Shown one piece after another: positions 7,677 to 17,417 of a stretch of DNA of 64,000 nt. Both the position numbers and the translations under genes were made by a program. Position 1 is the first letter of the stretch. The number at the start of each line of letters is the position of its first letter. This DNA comes from an uncultured Isosphaeraceae bacterium (lineage in GTDB: Bacteria > Planctomycetota > Planctomycetia > Isosphaerales > Isosphaeraceae). The stretch is from positions 124,001 to 188,000 of the forward strand of contig CAMFLR010000006.1 of the NCBI GenBank assembly GCA_945957605.1, written 5' to 3'. The notes under the pieces are model-generated. The model was not told the DNA's origin. It made no database searches and was given only the letters and a program-made list of their open reading frames with translations.

Positions 7677-9617
7677 ATGGATGCCCATTTCCGCCCGTTC
7701 TCGCTGATTTCCGTTGAACATACATACAAAAAAGATCGTGTCGACTTGCTTCTGAAACCTCGTTCGGTGTTCTGGCTGTCGCTCTGGTTTGGCATTCTGG
7801 CGGGGATCGTGGAAACCGCGGGACTTTTTGGCAAAACGTACCTGTTTCACGCGGGTGCACTCGGTAACCTGCAGATGAACCGGCACGCCTTTTGGATGAT
7901 CTCGGCGGCGAATGCTTTGGTGTTCGGTACACTCGGAATCGTGCTGACGCCACTCGCCCTTTCCAAGCGGTCGCGACTTTCGTTCGCAATCATCTTCCTG
8001 GTCGCGTCGCTGGCGGTATTGTGCGTCCTCTTCACTGTTGCGACCGGTCTCGCATTGGCGGCATATCTTCTGCTTTCATGCGGAATCGGTCTCTGCATGG
8101 CGCGAGGAATCGCTGCCCGTTATGCGCGATTTGAACGAGTCAGACGGCGAACAACGCCCGTATTTCTCGCCGCTTTGCTCGGAATGATCGGTCTATCGCT
8201 CTGCGCCGAATTTTTCGGCGACAAGGTTGTCGCCAAGGGCAGCCGTCCCGCGAAAGGCTCGCCAAACGTCCTTTGGATCGTGCTCGACACAATTCGCGCG
8301 GATAGCCTGAGCCTTTACGGTTACGAGCGGCCCACCTCGCCGCACCTCGAAGCGCTGAGCCGCGCGGGGATTCGCTTTGACAACGCGCGTTCGACCGCCT
8401 CATGGACGCTCCCTTCGCACGCCAGCATGTTCACCGGAAAGTGGCCGCACGAGCTCTCTGCGCGCCTCGGCGTGCCGCTCGACGATCAGGAACCGACGAT
8501 CGCCGAGTATCTCGAATCGAAGGGATACGCCACGGCAGGCTTCGTCGCCAATACCTTCTTTTGCAACGCTTGGTACGGCCTGGGAAGAGGCTTTGGCCAC
8601 TACGAAGACTCATCAATCAATCTCGACACGATCCTGCGAAGTTCGGGATTGGGCCGCAGGCTCGTGAAGGCAATCGGCAATGCTCCGCACGATCGTCCTC
8701 AGGCCCATCGACCACGTCTCAACGCGAAGAGCATCAATCAATCTGCGCTCGATTGGATCGCCGATTGTGATGATCGCCCCTATTTCGTGTTCATGAACTA
8801 CTTTGATGCTCACGACCCCTATTTGCTCCCCGAAGGTGAGGATTCGCCGCAAAACTTTCGGTCATTGGAAGAGACGGACGAGCATCGCGAGATTCTCAGA
8901 AACTGGCATCAAAATCCCCAACGCGACTCGCCCGAAGCGATTCAACTCGCCCGCGACGCCTATGACGAAGGAGTGTCGTATCTCGACGAGCAGGTGGGAC
9001 GATTCGTCGCCGAATTGCGGCAGCGCGGCGATCTGGAAAACACGCTCATCATTGTGACTGCCGACCACGGCGAGCTCATTGGCGAGCATGGTGAGTTCGG
9101 TCACGGCAGCAGCCTTCGACGCCAGCTCACGCACGTGCCGCTGCTGATTATCCCACCTAGCGAGAATTCTTCGCCGCGAGCCGTTTCTCATCCCGTGAGT
9201 CTCCGCGACTTGCCGGCCACGGTCGTCGATATGGCTGGATTGGCGAAAGATTCCCCCTTCCCGGGATGTTCATTAGCGAGGCATTGGTCGGCGAAATCGC
9301 ACGAGTTGAGGGAAACCGATCTCGTCCTGTCGGAGGTCGAACAGATTTATGGTGCGAAAATTCAGGCGGGCAAGTTGCCTCGTGCGCTGGTCGCTGAAGG
9401 CCGGACATACATTCGCCTCAACGATGGACGCGAGGAGCTTTATGACCTCGAAGATGACCCGCAGGAAGCGAAAAATTTGATCCATGCACATGACGAGCAA
9501 GCGGTGATCGCGCGGTTTCGTCGGCGGCTGGAAGCCTTTGAAGCGCGAGAGTCGAATGGCAGAGCGGAAGAGGCGGTTGAAGCGGATCGAGCGCCGGACG
9601 AAAAGTCTCCGGGATAA
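7677..9617 (+). CDS. Membrane-anchored sulfatase-like hydrolase/transferase (Thr at nucleophile site)
   Basis: 646 residues; GGAG lies about eight bases before the ATG. Residues 30-180 contain four or five membrane helices (SVFWLSLWFGILAGIVETAG, FAIIFLVASLAVLCVLFTVA). The rest is an alkaline-phosphatase-superfamily domain: NVLWIVLDTIRAD (metal Asp204, Asp209), TSPHLEALSRAGIRFDNA, WTLPSHASMFTG, VTADHGELIGEHG (metal Asp/His) and the usual C-terminal ELYDLEDDPQEAKNL. In true sulfatases the motif is C/S-x-P-x-R with a formylglycine; here it is Thr244-Leu-Pro-Ser-His248, as in the phosphotransferase and phosphodiesterase members that use Thr. Sulfatase activity is therefore doubtful; a phospho- or phosphonate-ester hydrolase or head-group transferase at the membrane surface is more likely. 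Confidence 0.8.
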   Translation: MDAHFRPFSLISVEHTYKKDRVDLLLKPRSVFWLSLWFGILAGIVETAGLFGKTYLFHAGALGNLQMNRHAFWMISAANALVFGTLGIVLTPLALSKRSRLSFAIIFLVASLAVLCVLFTVATGLALAAYLLLSCGIGLCMARGIAARYARFERVRRRTTPVFLAALLGMIGLSLCAEFFGDKVVAKGSRPAKGSPNVLWIVLDTIRADSLSLYGYERPTSPHLEALSRAGIRFDNARSTASWTLPSHASMFTGKWPHELSARLGVPLDDQEPTIAEYLESKGYATAGFVANTFFCNAWYGLGRGFGHYEDSSINLDTILRSSGLGRRLVKAIGNAPHDRPQAHRPRLNAKSINQSALDWIADCDDRPYFVFMNYFDAHDPYLLPEGEDSPQNFRSLEETDEHREILRNWHQNPQRDSPEAIQLARDAYDEGVSYLDEQVGRFVAELRQRGDLENTLIIVTADHGELIGEHGEFGHGSSLRRQLTHVPLLIIPPSENSSPRAVSHPVSLRDLPATVVDMAGLAKDSPFPGCSLARHWSAKSHELRETDLVLSEVEQIYGAKIQAGKLPRALVAEGRTYIRLNDGREELYDLEDDPQEAKNLIHAHDEQAVIARFRRRLEAFEARESNGRAEEAVEADRAPDEKSPG

Positions 9618-9766: not shown

Positions 9767-12700
9767 TTACTTGCCCTTCTTGGCAGCGGCCTTCACGCTG
9801 ACGTGAGCCAGCGCGGCGTCGTGCACGGCGTGTGCCTTCGCCTTGGCAGCAGCCTTGACCGCAGCTTGGTGCTGGGCCTTGGTCTGGTGGCTGCTGGGCG
9901 TCGGGTAGCCGGTCGGCTTGTGGCCCGGCGGGGTCTTCGGCGAAGCGCTCGAATCCGTCGGGAAGGGGCGGAACGTGTAGCTCGAGCTGGAGACCAGCAG
10001 AGCCTGGAAGTTACCGCCGGGCGTACCGTTGCCCGAGGGCTGGTAGCCGTAGAACTCGCCGTCGAGCGGGTTGCCGGCGATGTCAGAGACACCGTTGCCA
10101 GGCGTGCCGGACTTGATGGTGAGGACGTAGCGGCCAGTGCGGAGCGGGTGACCATTGTTGATGGTCAGGATCGCTTCGACCGGATCGGTCGGGCTGCCCG
10201 AACCGACGATCTGGATCTTGGTGATCAAGTTCGGCGGATACGAGGCCTTCGCGTAGACGCTGAACCGGAAGAAGCTGCCGTCGAGCACGGTCTTGGGATC
10301 GAAGCCGTAGCGGACGCCGAGATCCTGGAAGGCGATGATGATCTGGCCGAGCGGACGACGGAAGATGGTTTCCGTAACCGTGGGGCCAGTCGTGTCGATC
10401 ACCAGGTCCGGGCCGCCGGTGCCGCCGAAGCCGAGGAGAACCACCGGCCCGGTGACATCGTTCAGGTTGTTCGGATCCGTCGCCGTCGCGGTGACGACGT
10501 AGGCGTTGTCAGCAAGAGCAACCGTCGAGCGGATCGACCAGTGGCCCGAGGCGTCGGTCACACCCGAACCGATGAGCATCGGCGGGTTCTGGTTCGACAC
10601 GTACAGGTTGATGATCGAGCCAGGCTCGCTGGTGCCGTTGAACGTCGGCTGAACAACATTGGTGATGTTGTCGCTGTTCGAGATACCGCTGTCGCTGGCC
10701 GGGTCGAGACGACCGGTGATGACGAACGGAACCTCGGAGATCGTGGCGGTGGTAACGACATGGAGGCGAGCGCCGCCGTCGTCGGTCACCACGACGTTCA
10801 CGTTGTACACACCAGGCGATTCGTAGGTGTGCGAGCCGAGAACGGTGAAGGTCACCCCGTCAGAACCAAGCACGATCGTGCCGGTGGTGGTGGGCTTGCC
10901 ATCGCCCCAATCGATGGTGGCGACGTAGTTGAGCGGATCTTCAGGACCGCCCGAGTCGGTGAACGTAGCGACCGGAACGTTGCTGAGCGGCACGCGTTCC
11001 TTGCCGGTGATGGGCACACCCTGGCCGACGAGCGGAGCGTCAACCACCGTGGCGATCGACGTGGCCGAGGCCGTCGATCCGCCGAGGTCATTGATCGTCG
11101 TGGTGACGACGTACTGACCTTCTTCGGCGTAGGTGTGGGTGCCAGTGACCTTGAAGGCAGCGCCCAGAACCGTCGAGCCGCCAGACGCGGTGACCACGCC
11201 AGCGCTCGTCGTGCCGTCACCCCAGTTGATCGAGACCGTGAAGTCGCTGGGCACGCCCAACGGATTCGAGTCGATGAACGTGGCGACGAGCAGGTTGGAG
11301 TTCTGACCTTCAACCGCGACGATCGGCTGCGTCGTGGCGAGCAGCGGAGCGTCAGCAATCGTGGCCGTCGCGTTCAACGTGGCGGTGACGCCAGCGGTGC
11401 TCTTGACGGTGACGACGATCGCATACGGCGTGGCGCCCGACTCTTCAGCGTAGGTGTGGTTCGACGAGACGTAGAACGTTCCGTCCGGAGCTTCGACGAT
11501 GGTCGCGGTCGAAACCGGCGTACCGTCGCCCCAGTCCACAGAAGCCGTGAAGTCGCGGGCGGTCGCCAGCGGGTTGGCGCTGGTGAAGGTACCAACAACC
11601 AGGCCGCTGAGAGCCGCACCTTCGGTTCCAGTCAGAGCCGCGTTCGAGCCCGGCGTGAGAGCCGCGCCGGTGACGGTGGCCGTGCTGGTGGCCGTCGCAA
11701 CCGAACCGCCGTTGTCAACGATCGAAACCGTGACGGGGAAGGTGCCGAACTTGTAGGTGTGCGTACCGGTCACCACAAACGCGGTGCCCACGCCACCCGG
11801 CTGGGTGACGGTGCCCGAGCTCACGATACCGTCGCCCCAGTTGATCGCAACCGTGAAGTCGCTGATCGGAGCGTTCGGATTCGCGTCGGTGAAGGTCGCA
11901 ACCTGACCGGTGAACGGAGTGCCTTCGACCGCCGAGACGGCAGTGCCCGTCGCGGTGAGCGCGGCGTCGGCAATCGTGGCCTGGCTGGCCGCGGTTGTGC
12001 CGCTGCCGCCGGCGTCGCTAATCGCGACCGTGATGCTGTACTTGCCGCTTTCGAGGTACGTGTGCGGAGTTCCGCTCGTCACCTGGAAGCCGGAGATTGC
12101 ACCACCAGCGACCGAGATCACACCGGCGCTCGACGTGCCGTCGCCCCAGAAGATCGTCGCGGTGTAGTCACCAACAGCACCGGCGGGATCAGCGTCGGCG
12201 AAGTTGGCAACCAGCGTACCAGCCGGGATTGCAGCACCTTCGACACCCAGCACGTTCACGCCAGCCGACGACAGCGGAGCGTCTTCAACGACCGCCGAGG
12301 CGGTGATCGTCGTGGTCGGCCCGTTGATGTCGTTGACAGTGACTGTGATCGGGTTCGACGCCGATTCCTCAGCGTAGGTGTGCGTACCGGTGACGGTGAA
12401 CACACCAGCCGAAGACTGCGTGATCGTACCGGTCGATGTCGAGCCGTCGCCCCACGCGATCGTGGCCGAGAACTGCAGGATATTCGCGATCGGGTTGCCG
12501 GTGGTGAACTCGCCAAGCTGAGCGGTGAACGGCTGGCCTTCGACGACGGTCAGGGCAGCGCCCGGGCCGTTCGGAGCCAACGTGGCCGCGCTCACAGTGG
12601 CGGTCGAGGTCGCGGTAGCGGTCGATCCGCCAGCGTCGTTGATCGTCACCGAAATCGGGTACGATCCAGCCTTGTAGGTCTGCGAACCGGTGACGACGAA

Positions 12701-15700
12701 CGCGGTGCCAACGCCGCCCGGCTGCGTGATCGTGCCGGAGGTGATAACGCCGTTGCCCCAGTTGATCGTCGCGGTGAAGTCGCTCAGCGGAGCGGTCGGG
12801 TTGGCGTCGGTGAACGTCGCAACCTGGCCGGTGAATGGATTGCCGTCGACGGCGAGAACGGCGGTGCCGGTCGCGCTCAGCGGAGCGTCAGCGATGGTCG
12901 CATTGCTGCTGGCCAACGTGGTGGCGCCACCGACGTCGTTGATGGTGACGGTAACCGAGTAGTTGCCCTCTTCCGCGTAGGTGTGGGCAGTGCCACTGCG
13001 AACGAGGAAACCGGAAATCGGTCCGCCGGCGACGGTGATCACACCAGCGCTCGTCGTGCCGTCGCCCCAGTCGATCGTCGCGGTGAACTCGCCCACGGTC
13101 GCAGCCGTGTTGGAGTCGGAGAACGTCGCAACCAAGGTTCCGACGGCGATCGGAGCACCTTCGACACCCAACACATTCACGCCGCTCGAGCTGAGCGGAG
13201 CGTCTTGAACGGTCGCGGTCGAGTTGATCGTCGTGGTGCTGCCACCGTTCGTCTGCAGCGTCGTGACGATGCCGTTCGACGTCGCAGTGCTCTTGCTCTG
13301 GTTGTGCGTGACAGTGATGACGATGTCCGGAGTCGATTCATCAGCATACGTGTGTGTGCCGATGACGTCGAAGCCGCCGGTGCCATTGGCAACGATCGTG
13401 CCCGCGGAGGTCGTGCCGTCGCCCCAGGCGATCGACGCGGTGAAATCGCTGGCCGCTTCGATCGGGTTGACCTGGTTCGGAACCGGCGCCGGATTTGAGG
13501 CCGAGAACGAACCAACGATACCGCTGAACGTGCTGCCTTCAACCGCCGTGATGGTCGCCGCGGTGTTCACCAACGGCAGGTCAAGGATGTTGTTGACGGC
13601 GACGTTGGTGAAGCCAAGATACGTGAGCGTCGGCGAGGCGCCGGCGATCAGCGTGGTCGTGGTCTGCGCGGTCGTCGTATTGCCAGCGTCGAAGATCAGG
13701 TTGTTGACGCCCGGGCCACCGTTAACAGTCGCAGCAGCGCCGAGGCCAGCCGCGTTCACGTTGACCGTGTCGGAGCCGTTGGCGGTGTTGACCGTGACGG
13801 GCGCACCCGTCGGAGTGGCAATCAGGGTGACGAAGTCGGTGCCGCCACCGGTGTTGATCGTCAGGGTCGCGAGACCTTGCGTCACGCCGGGGTCATTCAC
13901 TGAGACCGTGGCGTCGAGAGGGCCGGTCGAGTTCACGGTGACGTTGGTCTTGTTCGCGATCGCCGCGGACTCAAAGCCCGGAGGCGTATCAGCGCTCGCG
14001 ATCAACGTGCCGGGAAGGCCGTTTGCGGTGGTCGGGGTCAGCGAGATCGTGTTCGGCGCGGCCGGGGCGTTGAACGTGTAGTTCGTGACGCTAACCGTGT
14101 CGATCACGGGGCTCAGGCCGGTGAAGCCAATGGTCGAGCCATCGAGGTCGATATTGCCAGCACCGGGGCCGGTCGCGGTGTAGGTCTCGTTGGTGAACGA
14201 GGGCGCACCACCCGGAAGATCGTTGACGAGCACGAGCGTGTTGTTCGTGCCGCCACCGCCGCTGAACGTTTCGCCGCCAGCCGGAATCGGGTTGCCGCCG
14301 CTGAAGTCGATCGTCGCGGTCGAATCGCCCGAGCCACCGTTCAGCTCGATCGAGTTCATACCGGTCGAAGTGACGGTGTGAGCGGTCGGGTCGGTGATGG
14401 TCGTCTGCACCGTGGCGCCGACAACGACCTGATTGAAGTTATCGCCGCCGCTGCTGGCGGAGATCTGGAGATCGTCGGTACCACCGTTGCCGACGACGGT
14501 CACGTTTCCAGCACCAGCCGGAATGATGAACGTGTCGTTACCGCTGCCACCGGTCAGGGTCGAATCAACACCAACCGGAGCGGTGAAGGTGTTGCCACCC
14601 GAACCACCGATCGCGTTCTCGATGTTGGCACCCGTTCCGATGCCCGTCGCAGTTTGCGGGCTGGCATTGAGGTCGACCGATACGGCGGTCGTGTACGCCG
14701 AGTAGTCGAGCGTATCGACGCCGGCCTGACCGTCGATCGCGCCGCCGCCGGTCGAAGCACCGTCAGCGAAGACGAGGGAGTCGTTGCCGGTTCCCATGTC
14801 GATCGAGATGGGGTAGCCAGGCGAACCGTCGGTGTTCAGGTTGTAGGTATTGCCGCCCGAACCGCCCTTGAGCAGCAGCGAGCTGAGAGCGCTCGAAGCA
14901 TAATTCACCGGCGATGCAGCGACGCCGAGCATACCAGTGACCGAGTCGGCCGCGATCGCCACGCTGAGGGCGGTCGTGTCGTTCGAGTCGTCGATCACCA
15001 GCGCCGCCGTGGTGGCGCCAGACTTGGTGATGTTGACGCTGTTGGCAAGAATGCTGGTCGTCAGGCCAAGAGCGTGATTCGCGCTGCTATCACCCAGGAA
15101 GATCTGGTCTGCGCCAGCGCCGCCGTTCAAGTTGAGCGTGCTACCGGTGCCCGCGCCCGAAACGTAGACCGCATCAGCGCCGTCACCCGTGAAGAGCGAG
15201 GTGGTGTTGCTGGCCTGCGTGCTCTGAACGTCGAACGTGTTGCCGCCCGAACCGCCGCGAACGGTGAGAGCACCGACGGCGTTGAACGTCACGTTGCCGG
15301 TCGCGTTGAAACCGGTGATTCCGGTCGACTTGACGACGAACGTGCGAGCCGTGGAATCGACCGAATCGTCGACTTCCATCGTCGCGTTGTTGGTGTTGTT
15401 CAGGTCGACGTGGCCGAGGACAGCGCTCGTGTCGCCGGAATTGCCGACCTTGACCGCACCGTGGGCCGCGGTGATATCAAGGGTTGCAGTCGAAGAGAGC
15501 GAGCGAACGGTCGTCGTCCCTGCACCCGTGCCCGTGTTCAGGGCCATCGTGTTCGTCGGCGTGCCCGTGAACGTCACGTTGTCGTTCTGAGTGCCGCCGA
15601 AGATATTCAAGGCCGAAAGCGAACCGGTGGTGATATTGACCGATCCACCACCGAGAATGTTCGAGATCGACGTACCGCTCACGGTTGCCGACGTCGTCAC

Positions 15701-16252
15701 CGCGGTGTTCGCCGAGTCGTCGACATTCAGCGTCGTCGTGCCCAGCGCGTTGTTGATCGAGACGTTATTGGTAATGTCCTGAACGCCGTGCAGCGCATTA
15801 CCCAGGAAGACCGTCTGGGTGCCACCGGCGTTGTTTGTCGGCGAGATCGACAGCGGTTCGATGACCGACTGGATGTGGAACGTGTCGGTGCCGTCACCGG
15901 TGTTCATGATGATCGAGCCGACCGGACCGTCGGGGATCGTCGCCGTGTGACCCGAAGGATCGACAGTGACGCCCGCCGCGATCGCATTCGCGGTCAAGAC
16001 GATCGTGTCGCCGGAGTCGCTCAGGATGTCAGTGTTCGTCGCTGAGTTAAACGCGAACGTGACATTGTTGTTGTTACCCGACGCGGCGCTGTACGAGAGA
16101 ACGCCGGAGGTGAGATCGAGGGTCGAAAGGACCTGTCGCTCTTCCAAACGCTCTAATCGGACGTTGGCCTCCAAACGACGCAGAGTGCGCTTGCTCTGTC
16201 GCTTTTTGTGATTCCCGCCGGGGGACCAAAAATCACTGGCTGACGCTTTCAT
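9767..16252 (-). CDS. Giant exported protein with nine PKD-like domains (probable cell-surface protein)
   Basis: 2161 residues from the ATG at 16252, preferred over 16294 because GGAGAA sits just upstream. The basic N-terminus ending in RLERLEERQVLSTLD resembles the planctomycete leader that precedes huge exported proteins. Residues ~45-900 are Gly/Asn/Thr/Asp-rich beta-repeats (GGAGADQIFLGD, GGSGNDTFIIPAG). From ~900 to 1830 there are nine PKD-like domains of ~103 residues, each with a core such as DFTATINWGDG and a later GTHTYAEE; the WGDG motifs fall every ~310 bases from about 13430 to 10905. They form a three-domain super-repeat (see findings). One bacterial Ig-like domain follows (TFNGTSEPGSIINLYV), then a C-terminal beta region and a Lys/Ala/His-rich tail (KAAAKAKAHAVHDAALAH). 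Probable adhesion or cell-envelope role. No cysteines or sortase motif noticed. Confidence 0.85.
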   Translation of the reverse strand: MKASASDFWSPGGNHKKRQSKRTLRRLEANVRLERLEERQVLSTLDLTSGVLSYSAASGNNNNVTFAFNSATNTDILSDSGDTIVLTANAIAAGVTVDPSGHTATIPDGPVGSIIMNTGDGTDTFHIQSVIEPLSISPTNNAGGTQTVFLGNALHGVQDITNNVSINNALGTTTLNVDDSANTAVTTSATVSGTSISNILGGGSVNITTGSLSALNIFGGTQNDNVTFTGTPTNTMALNTGTGAGTTTVRSLSSTATLDITAAHGAVKVGNSGDTSAVLGHVDLNNTNNATMEVDDSVDSTARTFVVKSTGITGFNATGNVTFNAVGALTVRGGSGGNTFDVQSTQASNTTSLFTGDGADAVYVSGAGTGSTLNLNGGAGADQIFLGDSSANHALGLTTSILANSVNITKSGATTAALVIDDSNDTTALSVAIAADSVTGMLGVAASPVNYASSALSSLLLKGGSGGNTYNLNTDGSPGYPISIDMGTGNDSLVFADGASTGGGAIDGQAGVDTLDYSAYTTAVSVDLNASPQTATGIGTGANIENAIGGSGGNTFTAPVGVDSTLTGGSGNDTFIIPAGAGNVTVVGNGGTDDLQISASSGGDNFNQVVVGATVQTTITDPTAHTVTSTGMNSIELNGGSGDSTATIDFSGGNPIPAGGETFSGGGGTNNTLVLVNDLPGGAPSFTNETYTATGPGAGNIDLDGSTIGFTGLSPVIDTVSVTNYTFNAPAAPNTISLTPTTANGLPGTLIASADTPPGFESAAIANKTNVTVNSTGPLDATVSVNDPGVTQGLATLTINTGGGTDFVTLIATPTGAPVTVNTANGSDTVNVNAAGLGAAATVNGGPGVNNLIFDAGNTTTAQTTTTLIAGASPTLTYLGFTNVAVNNILDLPLVNTAATITAVEGSTFSGIVGSFSASNPAPVPNQVNPIEAASDFTASIAWGDGTTSAGTIVANGTGGFDVIGTHTYADESTPDIVITVTHNQSKSTATSNGIVTTLQTNGGSTTTINSTATVQDAPLSSSGVNVLGVEGAPIAVGTLVATFSDSNTAATVGEFTATIDWGDGTTSAGVITVAGGPISGFLVRSGTAHTYAEEGNYSVTVTINDVGGATTLASSNATIADAPLSATGTAVLAVDGNPFTGQVATFTDANPTAPLSDFTATINWGNGVITSGTITQPGGVGTAFVVTGSQTYKAGSYPISVTINDAGGSTATATSTATVSAATLAPNGPGAALTVVEGQPFTAQLGEFTTGNPIANILQFSATIAWGDGSTSTGTITQSSAGVFTVTGTHTYAEESASNPITVTVNDINGPTTTITASAVVEDAPLSSAGVNVLGVEGAAIPAGTLVANFADADPAGAVGDYTATIFWGDGTSSAGVISVAGGAISGFQVTSGTPHTYLESGKYSITVAISDAGGSGTTAASQATIADAALTATGTAVSAVEGTPFTGQVATFTDANPNAPISDFTVAINWGDGIVSSGTVTQPGGVGTAFVVTGTHTYKFGTFPVTVSIVDNGGSVATATSTATVTGAALTPGSNAALTGTEGAALSGLVVGTFTSANPLATARDFTASVDWGDGTPVSTATIVEAPDGTFYVSSNHTYAEESGATPYAIVVTVKSTAGVTATLNATATIADAPLLATTQPIVAVEGQNSNLLVATFIDSNPLGVPSDFTVSINWGDGTTSAGVVTASGGSTVLGAAFKVTGTHTYAEEGQYVVTTTINDLGGSTASATSIATVVDAPLVGQGVPITGKERVPLSNVPVATFTDSGGPEDPLNYVATIDWGDGKPTTTGTIVLGSDGVTFTVLGSHTYESPGVYNVNVVVTDDGGARLHVVTTATISEVPFVITGRLDPASDSGISNSDNITNVVQPTFNGTSEPGSIINLYVSNQNPPMLIGSGVTDASGHWSIRSTVALADNAYVVTATATDPNNLNDVTGPVVLLGFGGTGGPDLVIDTTGPTVTETIFRRPLGQIIIAFQDLGVRYGFDPKTVLDGSFFRFSVYAKASYPPNLITKIQIVGSGSPTDPVEAILTINNGHPLRTGRYVLTIKSGTPGNGVSDIAGNPLDGEFYGYQPSGNGTPGGNFQALLVSSSSYTFRPFPTDSSASPKTPPGHKPTGYPTPSSHQTKAQHQAAVKAAAKAKAHAVHDAALAHVSVKAAAKKGK

Positions 16253-17417
16253 GAACACTTCTCCGAGGATGGATGGAGAACTTCGACCGGTCACCGCGCA
16301 GGGGCAGCGGCGCCCTCACGCGGGTATACGCTTGAGGATCCTTCCTCGGAAAACGCTCCTCGCACGACAGAAGCTCAGATCTCAGACACGAATTGATGGC
16401 CAATTCGACGAAGCGGGAGACGGGCCAAAATGCGAGTCGGCGGACCAACCAAGCAGCGAAACGTCAAGTGGTAGGCAATATGACTTGGGGGCGAGGTGTA
16501 AACCGATGTATGCGTGCACAAACCGACGAGTCACCGCGCGACTAACCCCAATTCTATCCCACACAGAACGCCGTGCCGGGGTGCCTAAAGAAACACAGCC
16601 CAAACTCGCCATGTTGACGAGATTCAACCTGTGCCCTCATGCCTGTCGCACTATAGCCACACCGAAAACCCATTGCATCTTTTTTTTTTGAAAAAAACCT
16701 TCCAAACCCCCCAAAGCCCCATCGCTACCACCTAACTACTCTTTCATACGTAAACTGAGTCAATGCAAAAAATGCTTCAAATAAAGGGAAATAACGATGG
16801 AAATTTAGACCGCGAGCCAAAACACAAACCTGAACCGTGTTGCAAAAAAACAACATTCTTAAGCTAGGCGCGCGGACCGACAACGCTGAATTTGGGATGA
16901 CTAAGTAGACTAGCGAAATGTTTTCGGCATTAACGAAGATAAAAGCGACCCCAAAAAATGGCCGCAGAAACCGCGCGTTTTCGCAGCATTAAAGTTTGAT
17001 CGACGGCGTGCCGACAGCCTGTTTTCCCAGGTATTCACGAGGAGCTCACGAGTTCTTTACCAGCTCGTCAACTCGAAAAGCAGGTGTTTTTCCACTGAAC
17101 ACACAGACAGATCACTGGCAAAAAGACGTAACGCACAGATAAGTGCAAAGATGTCTCAATATGTTCGTTTTTGTTCGGAATGATCTGAAGCGACCGGTAA
17201 GCCTAAATAGCAAATAACGACGATCTTCTCCGCCAAATTCCTCCATCCTGACCGCCCATGGCTTCAAGCATGCACATCCCGGGCCAAGTGTATGTCTGTT
17301 TAGAAAAACGTAAAACGCGCGCGGCTGCTCCCCTTCTCCGGTAAGCCAGAAAAGGCGGGCGCAACCTTGTGCGTCGTAGATCTGCGTGTTATGGGCTCGT
17401 TCGAAAAGGCACAGCCA
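16253..17417. other. Long AT-richer non-coding stretch
   Basis: About 1.17 kb with no convincing gene, clearly lower in GC than the surrounding genes (homopolymer runs near 16680-16695). Its left end must hold the promoter and untranslated leader of the giant surface protein; on the minus strand a TATAGT at 16650-16655 is a weak -10 candidate. No tmRNA, RNase P or SRP signature was recognised. Confidence 0.5.

Follow-up and report, generated by a model that had tools for sequence, protein, structure and literature searches.

Arrays of repeated protein domains often expand by several domains at once, commonly in mid-array, with a unit size that is specific to the family (PMC1553488). In the survey of Bjorklund, Ekman and Elofsson (2006), nebulin repeats grow in units of seven, fibronectin III domains in units of four and cadherin domains in units of five, and units of two are the commonest overall (PMC1553488). 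Genes longer than 5 kb are a typical feature of planctomycetes, and such giant genes code mostly for surface proteins or for polyketide/peptide synthases (PMC5352709, PMC5177795). We analysed a gene of this size class in a 64,000-nucleotide stretch (hereafter, the window) from an uncultured Isosphaeraceae bacterium (contig CAMFLR010000006.1, positions 124,001 to 188,000). Like planctomycete giant genes, it is long (an open reading frame of 6.5 kb) and repeat-rich, encodes immunoglobulin (Ig)-like domains and belongs to a planctomycete relative in the Isosphaeraceae. It encodes nine PKD-like domains, and alignments of these domains support growth of the array by duplication of a multi-domain block at a three-domain period. 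For the window itself, this is an ordinary further case of the published multi-domain tandem duplication: similarity peaks at a multi-domain lag and the copied block lies in mid-array, and related arrays peak at lags of two, three or five domains. Unlike the systems in the 2006 survey, these are planctomycete bacterial PKD-like arrays, a family absent from that paper, with one clear duplication in the window. How PKD arrays are built from repeats is not analysed in the two papers on giant genes, and PKD appears in neither text; in the literature, we found no paper on PKD domains in Planctomycetes or on such super-repeats. The locus thus provides a worked bacterial example of block-wise growth of a domain array, accompanied by an orthologue and a survey across the family.

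The array (positions 10730-13576, residues 907-1855; all features of the gene lie on the reverse strand) consists of domains of about 100 residues (a unit of ~102) centred on a WG[DN]G motif, which reads WGDG in eight of the nine domains and WGNG in the third. The codons of this motif were located in every domain (D1 to D9 in protein order), in agreement with an earlier note on this DNA that had placed nine PKD-like domains here. In domain-by-domain alignment, D2 (12884-13198, motif codons 13058-13069) is 69.5% identical to D5 (11963-12277, motif 12137-12148), and D3 (12584-12883, motif 12749-12760) is 73.0% identical to D6 (11663-11962, motif 11828-11839), against 32-57% for all other pairs and a mean of 44% over all pairs. 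D2 and D5 share a two-residue insert, and D3 and D6 share TQPGGVGTAFVVTG. In the DNA, the best 300-nucleotide segment is 75.0% identical at an offset of 921, compared with 57.3% at the next-best offset and a median of 30% over offsets; a repeat finder reported a direct repeat of 300 nucleotides at 75% (repeat family D4), and Tandem Repeats Finder, for which the longest period covered was 500, reported no array at the locus. The strong stretch of the diagonal pairs ~12600-13260 (most of D3, all of D2 and the end of D1) with ~11680-12340 (most of D6, all of D5 and the end of D4). Identity at offset 921 is 62-81% over ~11,690-12,350, 42-52% over ~11,450-11,690 (D7 against D4) and 22-36% nearly everywhere else. 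The match between D1 and D4 reaches 50% at offset 972, because D1 carries an insertion. Across the whole array, the mean identity at lag 3 (52.7%) is the highest of all lags (per-lag permutation P 0.009). The block similarity is real, and both pairings in the earlier note, as well as its period of about 920 bases, stand. Because the domains are unequally distant from one another and the diagonal exists, neither equidistance nor a missing diagonal speaks against the block structure that the note described.

The copy is not recent. The diagonal owes its strength to first and second codon positions, at which D2-D5 and D3-D6 are 74-86% identical, because fourfold-degenerate sites in matched codon boxes are at chance: 51% identity for D2-D5 and 47% for D3-D6, compared with 46.9% in the pool of all pairs and 44.2% expected from codon usage. 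The orthologue in a genus-mate (G001:C91) is 57% identical to the window protein and also has nine domains (G1 to G9), with spacings of 127, 105, 100, 104, 110, 101, 105 and 107 residues, compared with 126, 105, 100, 102, 105, 100, 105 and 104 in the window. A scan of public genome contigs returned one full-length relative only (JANXSY010000152.1, from an Isosphaeraceae bacterium metagenome-assembled genome), apparently the genus-mate. G3 and G6 are 69% identical to each other, but G2 and G5 only 40%, which may reflect either fast evolution of G2 or later homogenisation or replacement. Comparison of the two orthologues shows that the duplication predates the split of the genus's two known species. 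The number of repeats, which the earlier note had proposed to compare between relatives, is therefore nine in both species, and its description of the triplets as "most recently" duplicated does not hold, given the nine-domain layout of the genus-mate and the fourfold sites.

With a period of three domains there should also be a third pair, for which 1-4 and 4-7 are the two candidates. D4 (12278-12583, motif codons 12443-12454) is 49.0% identical to D1 (13199-13576, motif 13415-13426), a domain of 126 residues with extra insertions, and 46.0% identical to D7 (11348-11662, motif 11522-11533). Averaged over both species, the identities are 71.0 for 3-6, 54.0 for 2-5, 47.0 for 4-7, 46.8 for 6-8 and 43.8 for 1-4, so that the top three pairs are collinear at one lag; a column bootstrap of 0.76 favours 4-7 over 1-4. 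Trees and constrained-clade approximately unbiased (AU) tests took in the domains of both species. The clades {D3,D6,G3,G6} (95/85) and {D2,D5,G5} (99/96) were recovered, G2 lies on a long branch beside the latter (69/76), and domains 4 and 7 from the two species fall together, weakly, in the best tree (54/81). A copy of domains 2-3-4 into 5-6-7 is therefore slightly preferred, as judged from the alignments and trees, to a copy of 1-2-3 into 4-5-6. The growth by a three-domain unit proposed in the earlier note is thus upheld as to the period of the block, and only two pairs are clearly duplicated; domains 1-3 and 4-6 as the unit are not favoured, since 2-3-4 into 5-6-7 fits as well or better.

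We consider it likely that, as a whole, the locus records an old tandem copy of a three-domain block in the middle of a putative spacer or adhesion rod. Unequal recombination or slippage, presumably, would have copied three adjacent ~102-residue domains (~921 bp) in tandem, most likely 2-3-4 into 5-6-7, with 1-2-3 into 4-5-6 nearly as possible, at a time when the genus's two known species had not yet diverged. Synonymous sites would then have become saturated, domains 3 and 6 would have stayed alike in both species and 2 and 5 in the window's species only, and the third pair would have blurred. The product would be a row of Ig-like beta-sandwiches, most likely an extracellular rod for spacing or adhesion, which block-wise copying would lengthen with unlike domains kept adjacent. 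Several observations weigh against this account. The high DNA identity spans two domains only (D5-D6 against D2-D3), and the P value of the whole-array peak at lag 3 is 0.07-0.11 once the choice of lag is allowed for. The third pair is statistically open, as a 1+4+7 clade has a p-AU of 0.54 and 1+4 is likewise not rejected. Finally, we infer the surface location only from the LEERQVLS motif described below, the extracellular type of the domains and general knowledge.

The relationships between the two species also bear on gene conversion, under which an older A-B-C series would have had its 2/5 and 3/6 pairs kept or made alike later by concerted evolution. The identity of D6 to D3 and G3 (73%) exceeds that to G6, its positional orthologue (68%); D2 likewise resembles D5 and G5 (66.7%) more than G2 (48.6%); and long A-B-C series are seen in other giants of the family, all of which would suit conversion. 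The best tree groups neither D6 with G6 nor D2 with G2, a further point against a simple old duplication, but the AU test rejects neither of them (p-AU 0.44 and 0.48); a fast-evolving G2 accounts for the closeness of D2 to D5 and G5, and the fourfold sites leave no place for a recent conversion event. We regard conversion as unlikely. The view of the earlier note, that one triplet is present three times over and makes up the entire array (1-3, 4-6 and 7-9), draws on the lag-3 maximum and on the HTYA[DE]ES end common to D1, D4 and D7, whose joint clade is not rejected by the AU test. These GTHTYAEES-like ends were correctly noticed, but identity among the three domains is no more than 45-49%, and the nearest domain to D1 is D8 (51.5%). 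A 3+6+9 clade is rejected (p-AU 0.024), and 2+5+8 is unsupported, at a cost of 3.9 log units (p-AU 0.13), so that not every phase class of a perfect triplet series forms a clade. D8 (11036-11347, motif codons 11213-11224) is nearest to D6 (57%, the next-highest pair after the two duplicated ones) and D2 (53.5%), with no triplet partner established, and a placement of D8 nearer to D5 than to the D3/D6 pair has a bootstrap of only 0.10. D9 (10730-11035, motif 10898-10909), the most divergent domain, is 32-40% identical to every other one and is not a copy of domains 3/6. A diverged third triplet in domains 7-9 thus finds no backing, and we hold three triplets to be quite improbable. D3 and D6 lie close to the consensus of the family, being the best match for many last domains of other proteins, which might suggest that the paired domains are alike by convergence or slow evolution of consensus-like domains, with no duplication. 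Such an origin is hardly credible for two adjacent, collinear pairs that lie at a single exact offset, have indels and motifs in common and show the conservation at first and second codon positions given above. As for D9, it groups in the tree, together with G9, with the last domain of a protein from genome G027 (94/92); the candidate that D9 is a conserved last domain was rejected, as the last domain matches D9 best in only 3 of ~30 arrays.

Matches to the window protein were found in 39 of 59 related genomes. We examined block periods in 31 arrays of at least six PKD-like domains, over lags 1 to 6, by permuting the domain order and taking the maximum over lags as the null. A significant period was detected in 10 of the 31: three domains in four arrays (L039, with 35 domains; L046, 27; L048, 26; L047, 9), two domains in five (L051, L058, L065, L068 and L071) and five domains in one (L044). 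These are not ten independent events because some of the arrays are homologous to one another. For the window array and its orthologue (L056), the peak is at lag 3 and falls short of significance (0.07 and 0.09), since the repeat covers just a part of the array. L039 (G019:C92, 4188 residues), L046 (G016:C561, 3613 residues) and L048 (G004:C552, 3397 residues) are giants with 25-35 PKD-like domains from three genera, with identities of 36-48% at lags 3 and 6 compared with ~29-33% at other lags. They have a common triplet phase: for each pair, none of 2000 permutations reached the observed value, and the three offsets are consistent. Because the phase is common to all three, their triplet predates the three genera. 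The phase of the window array showed no clear fit to the giants (P 0.0045 with L046 and 0.0055 with L047 among 28 tests), with inconsistent offsets to L039 and L046. It is a doubtful but conceivable proposal that giant surface proteins of the Isosphaeraceae are built from an ancestral A-B-C triplet of PKD-like domains with a conserved phase, and that the window array would be a short, eroded member of this series; the triplet might then have been kept by selection for unlike neighbours or as a three-domain structural repeat of the rod. The phase common to giants of different genera, whether it comes from copying history or from structure, is the sole point that goes beyond the published mode, and the three giants could be used to examine whether structure underlies the rhythm or it is a mere trace of copying. 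Other periods are also seen in the family. The window's own genome encodes a paralogue, L051 (G000:C9, 1240 residues), whose super-repeat spans two domains, with 53% identity at lag 2 and a spacing that alternates between ~107 and 100 residues. L044 (G030:C409, 2184 residues) has 21 PKD-like domains with 43% identity at lag 5, compared with 35-39% at other lags, and no permutation was as high.

The fold of D2-D4 was modelled with AlphaFold from an alignment of 56 three-domain stretches. The model is nearly all beta (predicted local distance difference test score 96.9, predicted template modelling score 0.85) and confidently predicts a row of Ig-like beta-sandwiches. The best VIA-align match is titin I67-I69 (Z 11.1, root-mean-square deviation 8.7, 254 aligned), and the bacterial adhesin extender 6xi3 (Z 9.2, deviation 6.9, 272 aligned), cadherins (Z of about 9) and cell-adhesion Ig chains were also matched; the top Foldseek matches are cadherins and an RTX adhesin. 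The predicted row thus resembles titin I-band Ig domains, cadherin ectodomains and RTX adhesin extenders, but sequence identity is only 7-20%; many Ig-like rods tie as neighbours, and the common fold shows no function. A sequence search of the PDB gave nothing significant (best 2kpn, E 0.61). The giant protein is probably a surface rod or matrix component with an adhesion or spacer role. Against Pfam profiles, the whole protein scores 52.5 bits for PKD_4 (PF18911; cut-off 27) and 30.3 for PKD (PF00801; cut-off 23.5), with the best matches in D8-D9 and D2; the D5-D7 piece by itself falls below the cut-off. NCBIfam provided no usable family for the protein: the PamR pilus protein model (NF058578) was rejected at 75.5 bits against a curated cut-off of 300, with eight short stretches inside the PKD-like part.

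The giant gene occupies positions 9767-16294 (2175 codons from a GTG, with an internal ATG 14 codons on as a possible alternative start). From the N-terminus, the protein comprises the LEERQVLS motif (16124-16147), a beta-type Gly/Asp/Thr-rich part (residues 57-905, ~850 residues, with no Pfam match), the nine PKD-like domains, a Big_13 Ig-like domain (10472-10714, Pfam E 4e-16), a C-terminal domain and a basic tail. A similar LExRxLLS-like motif is found near the start of most array proteins of the family (in the window protein and in L038, L041, L045, L046 and L047), and an 'HDxAlxxl' motif followed by a basic tail ends several of them: VHDAALAHVSVKAAAKKGK in the window (9767-9830), VHDHALASVTVPKKKHH in L046 and HHDVAISHVSVKHIARHK in L045. 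Judging from these sequences, the two termini could possibly form a sorting or anchoring pair. Antisense to the domain array, there is an open frame of 1231 residues (9803-13498, forward strand), probably a shadow frame due to the gene's high third-position G+C. The neighbours of the genus-mate orthologue are oxidoreductase-like, MoeA-like and ABC transporter genes; because these differ from the neighbour in the window, a sulfatase-like open reading frame at 7677-9617, a rearrangement has affected either the gene or the region around it.

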